In this document: positions 33,066 to 38,654 of the stretch, in pieces
Position numbering within the stretch: position 1 is the first letter of the stretch
How the letters are laid out: the number at the start of each line of letters is the position of its first letter
Assembly (NCBI GenBank): GCA_002189035.1
Contig: NEEC01000004.1
Coordinates: 434,001-498,000 of the forward strand
DNA length: 64,000 nt
DNA from: Utricularia gibba
Lineage: Eukaryota; Streptophyta; Magnoliopsida; Lamiales; Lentibulariaceae
Reading direction: 5' to 3'
Made by a program: the position numbers and the translations under genes
The notes under the pieces: model-generated
Databases searched by the model: none
What the model was told of the DNA's origin: nothing
What the model saw: the letters and a program-made list of their open reading frames with translations, nothing else

Positions 33066-33274
33066 CGTGGAACCCAGAGAGAGTCAGTGAGCAGCTAAGT
33101 GGATCCGGGCCGGGCCTCACCATGGGCTTGCCCAAGAGGTAAATACGGCACGCCGAAATGGTGAATGGACTCTTCGATCCTTGATTCCCTTCTAGAAGAT
33201 CGGCGCGCTGGCAGACAGGGAAAGACAATAAGATCTGACATCTTTCTACCCTTCCTACATTTGGGCAGCCAGTC

Positions 33275-33284
33275 AGTATTTTCC
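33275..33284. repeat. Left target-site duplication of the MULE
   Basis: AGTATTTTCC directly outside the left inverted repeat matches AGTCTTTTCC at 37229-37238 in nine of ten positions. A 9-bp duplication is usual for Mutator-like elements; one mismatch fits an older insertion. Confidence 0.55.
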
Positions 33285-33370
33285 GGTCTTTTAGAAAAAT
33301 GGCCACTGTCTACTTTGTACATTAGAAAAATGGCCACCGTGTGAATTTTGTTAGAAAAATGGCCATCCTC
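33285..33370 (+). repeat. MULE left terminal inverted repeat with three tandem units
   Basis: Copies of the TTAGAAAAATGGCCA unit begin near 33291, 33322 and 33351. The reverse complement of the right end shows the same unit three times, so the two ends are inverted copies with diverged spacers. Confidence 0.8.
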
Positions 33371-33865
33371 TAATATTTTTTTATAAAAAAAAATTTACAC
33401 GATTTTTTATTATTTATATATAGTATAAATCAATAAATTTTGTTAATAAATATCATTTAATATATAAACATAAATAAATACATCAAAATCATCATTTTCT
33501 ATTTTGTCATTGTATTTTTTAAAAACACAGAATATAGATTAACAATAGTTAATTAAATAATTTCATTTTAATTATTAGCTTTCTAAATTTGTTTAAAATT
33601 AGTTGATTTATAAAAAAAGCATTCTCTTTTATTTTAATTTTTTTTCATTCTTTACCCTAAAGCATTCTTTACTTAAATTTTATAACCTTTATCTTCAAGC
33701 ATTCTTTTTTTTATATATTTATGTATTCTTTAGCTTCAAGCATAGTTTTCTTAATTTTTGTATTCTTCATCTTCAATCATTCTTTTTCTTCATCTATTTG
33801 AGAAGAACTTCCATTATAATTTTGAAAATACAAATCATTTCACAAGACGTATTTTCTTGATTGAG

Positions 33866-36818
33866 ATGGCATTTCAATCTATTATGGCAAAGATATTCTT
33901 CGGTGGAAATATCCAAGATTATCACAACGGATATCGGGCATATGATCAACCTCCAATCGCTATTACGAGCTTCGAAAGTCATATATCATTTGATGAATTG
34001 AAGAGTCAATTATCATCATTTTGCGGTTTACAAGTTGATCGATATGAAATAATAGTTTATGCACAATATTATGATTCAACTTCAAATTCTACAAGATTCA
34101 TGGGGCTTGGATCAGATGTTGATTTGCTATATGTTTTCAATCCATTACATGCCGCAATGGGTGTTGATCTATTTGTTGAGGTTACATTGATACCAGAAGA
34201 AGAAAACAATCCTAATTTCAATATTAACAATCCTTTACAAGATGTGGAGGAGGATCAGCAATACGGTATTTATTTTTTAAAATTTTTCTATTATGATTTA
34301 CGTAATTTTTATTAGAATAATTCAAAGTTTCATAATTTATGAAATTATTGATGAAAATATTGGCCTAACTTTTATCTCAAGTAGGAAGTTACATTTTTTT
34401 TTAGTTATTTACACTTTTTCGAAATAATTAATAAATTTATTTACATATCTCTTTATCAATATTATTTATAGAATATGATTTAGAAAGAAGAGAAGAAAAT
34501 GATCCTTTGTTCGATATTATGGCTCAATATGATACTGACTACGATGAACAAGGTCAAGAAACCAATGAAAATGAGGAGTTGATTGATGAATTCTATGAAG
34601 GATGGGTTCCACGAGGATTTATTGCCAATGAGGGTCGATTAGATAATTGGTCAGAAGATATACTTGATCCCTTACATCTGATGCCTTCACCATTCACAAA
34701 AAACCAACAGTTTGGTTCTAAATTGGCATTTCTCAATGCGGTCACTTAGTATTCAGTAAAAGTTGGCCGTGAGTTCTTTGTGTACAAAACAAATGAAGAA
34801 AAACATCTTGAATTGAGATGTTATCAGAAGGCATCTCAAATGTGCAATTGGAGGATTCGATGTGCTTATCATAAACGCCTTGATTTATGGAAGATAACTG
34901 CATTGAAGGAGCCACATATATGCCGGCGTCTTGGACCAAACGCACTCTCACATAGGAATATTGGAAATGATTATATTGCTGAAATAGCTAGACCACTATT
35001 AGAAGAAGATGTCACAACTAAGGTAAAGGTTATCCAGACATTGATTAAAAGGGATACAGGATTTACAGTGCCATACCATCGAGCATGGTATGGTATGCGA
35101 AAAGCATTTGAACTTGTTTATGGCACATGGGAGTCATCAGTACCTCTACTACCTGCATTTCTACAAGAAGTTCAGACACAAAATCCCGAACCATTGTCGT
35201 CTACAGACACAAAGAAACCAATGCTTCCGACATTAAAACACTCAAGTACGTATTTTGGGCTTTTGGACCATGTATTTATGCTTATCGATGGACTTGGCCT
35301 GTTATCACAGTAGATGGAACACATCTCTACTCAAAGTTCAATCACAAGTTATTGATTGCCGTAACTGTAGATGCTTGTGGCCTTCTTCTACCTCTTGCAT
35401 TTGCAGTGGTTGATAGCGAAAATGATGAATCTTGGTTATGGTTTATTCGGCTGCTCGATCACTATGTTGTTGCAGGACAAGGGACATGTCTTATATTAGA
35501 TCGATGTAGTTCAATTCAAAAAGCATCGTCTCAAGTGCTGCCTTTCAAACCAGAATATGGTGGATGTCATCGGCATTGTATACGACATCTACGATCTAAT
35601 TTTCTCACTCATTTTCGTACCGAGGGACTTAGGGAAAAATTCAATCAAGCAGTATATGCTACATCCATCGAAAAATTTGAAAAATACATGATTGGAATTC
35701 AAAAACTCAATTACGCAGCTTGGGAGTATTTGAATAAATTACCTCGAGAAACATGGACACTTGCTTATGATGGAGGTGCTAGGTATTTATTTAATTTCTT
35801 TTAATATATACATTTTAATTAAATTCACTTAATATATGAATATAATTTTTAAATTTAATTTCAGGTGTGGTACATTAACAACAAATCATGTTGAAAGATT
35901 AAATGGAATATTAAAAGGAGCAAGACATCTTCTTTGACAGCATTAGTACATGTATTATTATAAATTTTAAAGTATATATATATTGTGTATATCTAAAAAA
36001 TATACTATTTAATATATGCAGGCTACTTATACTAGATGCCAACATTATTTTTATGAGAGACAAGAGAAAGCAATCAATTTACGACATAAACACATCTAAT
36101 ATGCGCATTGGGATAAGCCCATCCCACATGCAAGGATCCAAGTTATCGATGCTGCACAATCAAAGGTTCGAGTTATAAACCGTAAAAAGAACGGGAAAAA
36201 TAAAAGCTACATTGTTATGGTTCAAGATGGAATATGTGAGTACAGAAAATGACAAAATTTTGGCATATCACGCTCTCATGCACAACAGGTATGTCTATTT
36301 TATTTATTTTATTAATTTGTATATTATTAACCCTATCATAAATTTATATACAGGCATGCAAGCGACTCAATATTGATCCTCGTAGTATTATTAATCTAAT
36401 GATGCATCTCAATCGTCAAATAGCAACATATGAAGTTCAAATTCAAGCATTACGGTCTGAAGAAAGATGGGCACCACCAGCATTTACCTTGATGCATGAT
36501 CCAGATCGAAAAAAAGATGTTCGAGTAGGATCATCACACAATAGACATCTAATGCCTATGGATTTCCAAGCAAGTGGATCATCACACAATAGAGCACGTA
36601 GAGATTCTGCTTTACTTGAAGATAGAAGCTACGAATCACCTCCACTGATACATCGATCTTCTATTGATCTTCCATCCGAACCTGCATATGGAAATATTGA
36701 AGTACATCCACAATCTTCGATGCACAATCCACCTACTGGATGGAAGGAACTATACAACGAGCGAAATTGGACAATCTTCAAGGAATTCTACACAACAAAG
36801 CAGTTCAATCATTCATAA
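33866..36818 (+). pseudogene. MuDR/MULE transposase, inactivated
   Basis: Remains of a spliced transposase. Exon 1 (33866-34264) encodes the N-terminal PB1-like MuDR segment, and exon 2 starts at 34472. The DNA-binding region (RCYQKASQMCNWRIRC) and the MULE core (ITVDGTHLYSKFNHKLLIAV, then VVDSENDESWLWF) are recognisable. Lesions are a TAG at 34747 inside FLNAVT-YSVKVGREF, a one-base loss near 35185-35190 just before the core, and a TGA at 36250 inside the SWIM zinc finger. The SWIM ligands are also altered (CEY for CxC, SRSH for CxH). Further interruptions lie between 35930 and 36240. The last exon (from about 36355) remains open to TAA at 36818. No active protein can be made from this copy. 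Confidence 0.85.
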
Positions 36819-37139
36819 TTTTTTAGGTAGATTTAGACGAAGCAAACGTTAAATGTTTATATTGTATTTTATTATTTTAAACAATAAATTTGATAATTAT
36901 TTATATTTTTGAAATAAATTTATTCAAATTAATATTTTAAAAATAATTTATCAAATTTTATAAAAAGAATACGTATAGAAAAGATTAAAAAGCTTTTTAA
37001 ATATTTAAATATTTTTTGAATAACTTAAAATATTTCGAAAATATTGTAATTTATAAATTTTAGACATTATTTATATATCTTAACTACTATTATTTTATAT
37101 TATTTTAATAAAGAATATAATTTTTAAAAAAAAAAATAG

Positions 37140-37228
37140 AGACGATGGCCAGTTTTATAAAGAATTACACACAGTGGCCACTTTTCTCACACACATGTGA
37201 GAGGGTGGCCACTTTTCTAATAAACTCC
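37140..37228 (-). repeat. MULE right terminal inverted repeat
   Basis: Three copies of TGGCCA(C/G)TTTT-type units begin near 37146, 37174 and 37205, in the opposite orientation to the left end. Confidence 0.8.
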
Positions 37229-38654
37229 AGTCTTTTCCATCATATTTCAAGAATATTAATATTAACCCAATATTCCTCCAATCAAACTAACTTCATTTCC
37301 TAACCCTTGTAGCATAATAATAATAAAAAAACAAGAATTCAAAATTTGTCACGAAATACAAAAACTTGGGCAAGAAGATATCCAAAAGAGGATGAAAATG
37401 ATAGGAGCACAAAATCGCGCTTGGGAGACAGAAAGAGGAGGCTCTTTTTGAGCACTGTCGGGCGCCGCCCCCAGGGTGGTTTTGCATGTCAAATGACACC
37501 TTTACCCAAACACAGAGAGCGGGGGTGCAGACGCCCATGGGCAGTAGCGTAATTTGAGGGTAAAGCTGATTGACCCTGTGCACTCAAAAAAGGGGGAAAA
37601 TGTAGTGGAGGGAGCGCACGCCCCCACACTAACTCGCACGCCTTGCTTTCCAATTTCCATGGCTCGACTCCATCACAAAGCATGGCTCTTCAAAACCCAA
37701 AAATAGATGATCCTGCTCCCACCCACCACAATGCCTTGGTAGTTGGTTCATGTTTGGTTAATTATTTAAAAATATGTGTTAAAACAAAAACACAGGATAA
37801 TCATTTTTCCAAATGATCAGGATAGAAGATAGTATAAAAAATAAAATAATTATTCTGTACTATTTATTTATATAATTATATATATTAATATTAATAATTA
37901 GGTTTCAAAGTTCCAAGGATTAAGCATTAAATTCGCCTTCAAAAAATTAAAGGATATCAGAAAAAAAAACTCGTAACGTCATCCATGACATCTAAAGAAA
38001 AGATAAAAATTTTAATTAAAATTCGATGAAATTTCATCAATTCTATGTACATTATATATTATTAAAAAATTATATTCAATCTCCTTTTTTTTTTACGTAT
38101 CTGATTTTAAAACGGGCAAATAAATCCTAGGAGAAGGGTGTCGTCGTTGACGTAGCCCAGGTGGGGACCGCAGGCCTTTTTCTTTTTTCTTTTTATTTTG
38201 CATGTGGTCGGTCATCTACAATAATACCCAGTTTTTTATTACAATTCTTTTATTATTTGATTATTTTCAAATCGCACCCAAAGAACCCATGTTTTTTAGT
38301 TTTTGAAGTAATTTGATATAATTACTATATCACATAATTTTGGTCTCGACTGATAAGCAATGCACGCCGATTCGATTTGTAATACAAAAAAAATAGTGGT
38401 ATTAATTAGTGCGCGTAAGGGTAAAAAAGTAAATGCTACGTGATTTGATTAATAATTTAATATTGTGTTTGACAACTATCATTACTTTAATGCTTTTAGT
38501 TAGGTCCATGAAAAAGAGAGCGTTCTCAGGGCAGGCTGTGAAGTGTCTTCTCTCCCGAAGCGCCTTTGTCCTGCTTCTCCGGTGTGCAAACGTAAATAAA
38601 TACCGGGCCCTTCTTATGTTGCAGAAGCAGCACCTACTAGCGACGGGGCAGAAA
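37229..38654. other. Intergenic region between the MULE and thermospermine synthase
   Basis: About 1.4 kb starting with the right target-site copy (37229-37238). 37420-37680 is GC-richer with no convincing exon. 37740-38100 and 38260-38480 are very AT-rich. The last 150 bp form the leader of the next gene. Confidence 0.35.

Follow-up and report, generated by a model that had tools for sequence, protein, structure and literature searches.

Tandem motifs within the ends of MULEs have been described before. They were recorded in 10 of 12 Aedes MULE families with long terminal inverted repeats (TIRs), including Muta1, which carries nine 12-bp repeats, and Muta5, which carries nine 15-bp repeats (PMC5225508). 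The element presented here shares with Muta1 and Muta5 of Aedes aegypti a MULE transposase and short direct TIR repeats placed behind a short terminal motif. The two mosquito families differ in being animal elements with near-contiguous repeats (linkers of 3-4 bp in Muta1), a copy number that varies among derivatives and a target duplication of 8-9 bp (PMC5225508). The Muta1-type feature, a direct array of 9-15 bp repeats within the TIR, is found in our element, with its units about 30 bp apart and not contiguous, and the likeness is one of working alike only. Tm1 of Meloidogyne, a Mutator/Foldback element, likewise combines tandem TIR motif units of ~14 bp with MITE-like derivatives; it differs by a count of 1-9 units that varies freely between ends, by a Phantom-like transposase and by a mostly 9-bp duplication (PMC3169594).

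Among plant MULEs, MuTAnT/AutoMuTAnT of Medicago truncatula resembles our element in its single multi-exon mudrA-like gene, its small MITEs and its modular ends (PMC4486113). Compared by eye only, the MuTAnT TIR mask GGGGTTTGCTAGAACA (16 bases; PMC4486113) resembles GGGTCTTTTAGAAAA of the present family. MuTAnT differs in its insertion into TA microsatellites, its 9-nt duplication and its foldback TIRs of up to 144 bp (PMC4486113); the insertion sites of our family that we examined are not TA microsatellites. The tandem-TIR MULEs of tomato and Arabidopsis (Ferguson and Jiang 2012) are also plant MULEs with a repeated end sequence. Their authors suggested increased recognition by the transposase, and pointed to short TIR motifs in many DNA transposons (PMC3310237). 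In those elements whole TIRs of >=100 bp are duplicated, with external and internal copies similar over that length (PMC3310237), whereas the repeated unit here is ~15 bp and its spacers are unshared. The exact layout reported below, three units spaced by 31 and then 29 bp, was not found in the search, which covered open-access papers only. The suggestion in the original prediction that no MULE with such ends was known is too strong in view of Muta1/Muta5, Tm1, MuTAnT and the tandem-TIR MULEs. The family is new, in a class where tandem motifs at the ends are already described; less usual are the fixed number and phase of its units across diverged families and its 10-bp target duplication.

The element, its target site and its transposase

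The window, which is the whole 64-kb stretch of DNA analyzed, contains a degraded MULE with three sister copies (L027, L028 and L029) elsewhere in the genome assembly that was searched (100.09 Mb in 516 contigs). Aligned over ~3.9 kb, the window copy shares 96.8, 97.2 and 93.5% identity with L027, L028 and L029, respectively; these three lie at other loci, in unrelated flanks. Because the copies align within unrelated flanks, the tips of the window MULE are fixed as GGGTCTTTTAGA at the left and, read inward, GAGTTTATTAGA at the right; in the window copy a C stands in place of the first G. The boundaries, predicted originally at 33285-37228, are corrected by the sister copies to 33284-37227. 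The features of the element are as follows.

33284-37227, + strand: whole MULE, degraded copy, 3,944 bp (sister copies L027-L029)
33274-33283, + strand: target site duplication, left copy CAGTATTTTC, a 10-bp match to 37228-37237 with one mismatch
37228-37237, + strand: target site duplication, right copy CAGTCTTTTC, a 10-bp match to the left copy
34750-35208, + strand: transposase N-terminal region (ORF; the homologous exon of L027 has a weak MuDR-type DNA-binding domain)
35247-35783, + strand: transposase catalytic domain (MULE; PF10551, E=2.3e-16)
36053-36290, + strand: SWIM zinc-finger region, degraded, limits approximate (stops in the window copy, open in L027 and L028)
36354-36815, + strand: C-terminal transposase exon, open (ORF common to L027, L028 and L029)

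The target duplication measures 10 bp and not the 9 bp first reported. A 9-bp candidate, CCGGTCTTT/CCAGTCTTT, would follow from the boundaries first predicted; it was rejected once the sister copies had been aligned, since the apparent match runs into the left tip of the element. Perfect 10-bp duplications flank L027 (TAAAACGGAC, twice), L028 (GGGGTTTTTC, twice), the short, diverged element L035 (0.67 kb) and two MITEs of ~120 bp, L084 and L078. This length falls inside the 7-12 bp on record for MULEs (PMC9168764) and is less usual than 9 bp. A genome search for an empty site of the window insertion returned only its own two flanks. The proposal of a single insertion with repeated end units is supported. 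The assignment to MULEs is upheld as well, by the catalytic-domain match, the inverted ends, the direct duplication and the sister insertions.

The PF10551 match in the window copy itself lies above the gathering cut-off, as expected of a MULE-type DDE transposase. The flanking domains were sought in L027, where PF03108 (MuDR DNA-binding) matches L027:1608-2231 at a sub-threshold E of 0.012, and PF04434 (SWIM) matches L027:3215-3511 at an E of 0.004, below the cut-off. The C-terminal exon gave zero Pfam matches. In the window copy a stop codon interrupts the frame at 34747-34749, and somewhere from 35208 to 35247 the reading frame shifts relative to L027 and L028. Together with the stops in the SWIM region, these lesions indicate that the window MULE is not autonomous. 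In the list of open reading frames, the transposase-like region is the sole gene-like region recognized in the element. Transposase-related matches number more than 150 in the genome.

Three-unit arrays at both ends and among related elements

Each end of the element is a TIR of about 100 bp holding three units. The bit scores given for the two ends come from the R1 end model, which was built with both window ends among its sequences: 85.3 bits (left) and 87.1 bits (right).

33284-33383, + strand: left terminal inverted repeat, three-unit array (~100 bp)
33291-33305, + strand: left unit 1, TTAGAAAAATGGCCA, at position 8 from the tip
33322-33336, + strand: left unit 2, TTAGAAAAATGGCCA, at position 39, spacing 31
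33351-33365, + strand: left unit 3, TTAGAAAAATGGCCA, at position 68, spacing 29
37128-37227, - strand: right terminal inverted repeat, three-unit array (~100 bp, from alignment)
37206-37220, - strand: right unit 1, outermost, TTAGAAAAGTGGCCA (from sequence)
37175-37189, - strand: right unit 2, TGAGAAAAGTGGCCA, spacing 31
37146-37160, - strand: right unit 3, innermost, TTATAAAACTGGCCA, spacing 29

The units are 15 bp long, of the form TTAGAAAA(N)TGGCCA-like, in direct order, with the consensus TTAGAAAANTGGCCA. Counted from the tip, the units of both ends begin at nt 8, 39 and 68, which gives an inward spacing of 31 and then 29 bp. The three units per end at about 30-base spacing were correctly anticipated, and all six are present; the proposed TAGAAAA-TGGCCA form does not extend to right-end units 2 and 3, which begin GAGAAAA and TATAAAA. 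The whole window has just six matches to the motif AAAANTGGCCA, at 33295, 33326 and 33355 on the + strand and at 37156, 37185 and 37216 on the - strand, and all of them belong to units of the element. Windows simulated under a first-order Markov model contain 0.37 occurrences each and no triplets within 80 bp. Genome-wide, a pattern of two adjacent units found 19 matches, against 0 for its reversed control, and the unit pattern with a short extension matched at 80 places in 100 Mb, its reversed form at 1.

The left and right ends are 77% identical over 100 bp, as measured by the cross-match in L027 and L028. On this comparison the whole 100 bp reads as a diverged TIR in which conservation falls on the units. 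Terminal inverted repeats of MULEs often exceed 100 bp, and a repeat of ~100 bp at 77% stands on the short, diverged side of the class. The ends of MuTAnT, FARE1 and Tm1 are foldback or foldback-like structures of repeated modules (PMC4486113, PMC3169594), and the inverted arrays could by analogy act mainly as a foldback or hairpin. We regard this as very improbable here: the arms are only ~77% alike and lie ~3.7 kb apart in a 3.9-kb element, and conservation is centered on the units and does not run along the whole arm.

Related ends were collected by sequence patterns and DNA queries, and the resulting census is a lower bound. The three sister copies, near full length and 93-97% identical, share the 8/39/68 layout. 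In no fewer than 12 additional ends, from elements ~65-80% identical, the units lie at these positions or close to them. Of 24 MULE-type ends, diverged ones among them, most have the layout (31/29). The spacing between units 2 and 3 is 29 in all ends in which three units score, except the right end of L049 (27). An altered first step with the 29-bp second step kept was seen in L030 (27), L031b (26), L041a (36) and the right end of L027 (49). The right end of L029 has lost unit 2, a loss that may have followed insertion. According to the original prediction, an absence of other copies or a freely varying number of units would point to a local artefact; other copies exist, and unit number and spacing are largely fixed.

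Across 16 representative ends, mean pairwise identity was 0.74 in unit columns and 0.56 in the other columns, and the unit mask, shifted circularly in 88 ways, never did as well as in its true place; the diverged ends share ancestry, and these counts are not independent events. Self-similarity was maximal at lags of 29 (0.425) and 31 (0.434), against ~0.23-0.33 at other lags. These values bear on the possibility that the arrays are a neutral, functionless remnant of replication slippage in the terminal repeat. A process of this kind, with slippage between motifs, was put forward for tomato tandem-TIR MULEs (PMC3310237), and the right end of L027 and the tandem end of L041 demonstrate that such rearrangements do occur in this genome. 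Yet the spacers share little while the units stay alike, which excludes recent duplication of the units, and the units are more conserved than the spacers across diverged families at a largely fixed spacing. Neutral slippage is therefore an explanation that we disfavor and hold to be improbable.

An outward search from transposase relatives covered L049, L048 and L051. L049, with 67% transposase identity, bears an array end of the type described, at a distance of 1.5 kb from its catalytic exon. Three-unit ends were absent within ~3 kb of L048 and L051 (transposase 57-60% identical), and for this reason the array seems limited to a subgroup of MULEs, in what is a small sample. Three candidates were set aside. 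The inverted repeat of L046 (98 bp, 77%) is TIR-like, AT-rich and contains zero units. L085 and L082 match the unit pattern with neither array nor partner, and these matches are probably chance or solo remnants. Two arrangements of ends are of note. At L041:570-873 (G000:C213:1890069-1890372), two three-unit ends lie in direct orientation ~205 bp apart; this resembles a tandem-TIR MULE, and L041 is closer to that type than is the 31/29 array. L033 and L034 (G000:C255, ~1417400 and ~1393930) show the same element end twice, ~23 kb apart and inverted; as a 40-bp flank is also shared, they look like a segmental duplication carrying an element, rather than two insertions.

Candidate binding sites, MITEs and mosaic ends

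Many hits of the unit pattern belong to a gene-less MITE family of 123 bp, a family with 29 matches. One end of this MITE holds a pair of units spaced by 31 bp and the other a single clear unit; its tips read GGGTCAG/GGGTGAT, and its target duplication is 10 bp long. The presence of units in gene-less MITEs is what mobilization in trans would lead one to expect.

In our assessment the locus is a singly inserted, now dead MULE whose ~100-bp ends are three-site arrays, most likely bound by its own transposase. The position of the arrays at the tip (8 nt), the direct order, the near-integral helical spacing (31 bp being ~2.95 turns and 29 bp ~2.76, assuming 10.5 bp per turn), the conservation against a drifting background and the retention in gene-less derivatives all fit this reading. 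Multiple sites for the transposase, as predicted originally, are thus the best reading of the units, and it is conservation that suggests both the sites and the multimers on them. Against it weigh the weak PF03108 match, the lack of arrays within ~3 kb of L048 and L051, the shared ancestry of the diverged ends, and the lower unit numbers at the right end of L029 and in the MITEs. In the mechanism that we propose for this cut-and-paste MULE of a plant nuclear genome, the family's transposase would contact each 15-bp site through its DNA-binding domain. Binding at the outer site would bring the active site to the tip; the other two sites, following inward at steps of ~three helical turns, would allow several transposase molecules to load on one face of the DNA. 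The loaded transposases would pair both ends prior to excision, and reinsertion would proceed with a 10-bp staggered cut. At the present locus one such insertion would have been followed by decay. Given that the right end of L029 is without unit 2 and that the MITEs have fewer units, three sites are perhaps optimal, and three per end may not be strictly required. We extend the proposal only tentatively, as a reading less likely than not, to an obligatory 31/29-bp phasing under selection, in a clade-wide three-site transposase array with a 10-bp stagger, which would be a rigid multi-site end complex undescribed for plant Mutator elements.

The units could instead be sites for a regulatory protein encoded by the element or by the host, be it an anti-silencing factor of the VANC type or a transcription factor that drives the transposase promoter. 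VANDAL MULEs of Arabidopsis such as VANDAL21 do have short motifs in direct arrays, to which a protein of the element binds, the anti-silencing VANC21 (PMC5735166), and Mutator TIRs also contain promoters (PMC3310237). The VANC motifs, however, are internal and non-coding, with a number that changes fast (PMC5735166), whereas the arrays of the window MULE are terminal, starting 8 nt from both tips, and largely fixed in number and spacing. The gene-less MITEs retain units, and the element has no recognized VANC gene separate from its one gene-like region, the transposase. A regulatory role is accordingly unlikely, if the least unlikely of the alternatives to transposase binding.

How plant Mutator transposases recognize and pair their ends is poorly understood. 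Three phased sites per end, kept in part in 123-bp MITEs, offer a compact substrate for counting transposases in an assembly, and the unit is a clean motif for the annotation of related elements. The general picture of MULEs is unchanged by a three-unit family.

The MITE L084 (G000:C4:1882943-1883065) is inserted a short distance upstream of a repeated, gene-like sequence that has several local tandem paralogues. Because uninserted paralogues exist, clean empty sites are available for it: two of them, L090 (C1:3313492) and L091 (C4:1887475), hold a single copy of the target sequence, slightly diverged. At the right end of L027 (G000:C98, ~66,160-66,180), 18 extra bases, GGGTGATTTAAAAAAGTG, lie between units 1 and 2. 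They are identical to the tip of the 123-bp MITE, with the junction at a shared GTGGCCACTGT, and this end is a mosaic of two element families, probably produced by template switching between homologous units. Lastly, two inverted 123-bp MITEs lie a few bases apart at L076:149-404 (G000:C4:3603498-3603753), where they make up a foldback of ~255 bp.
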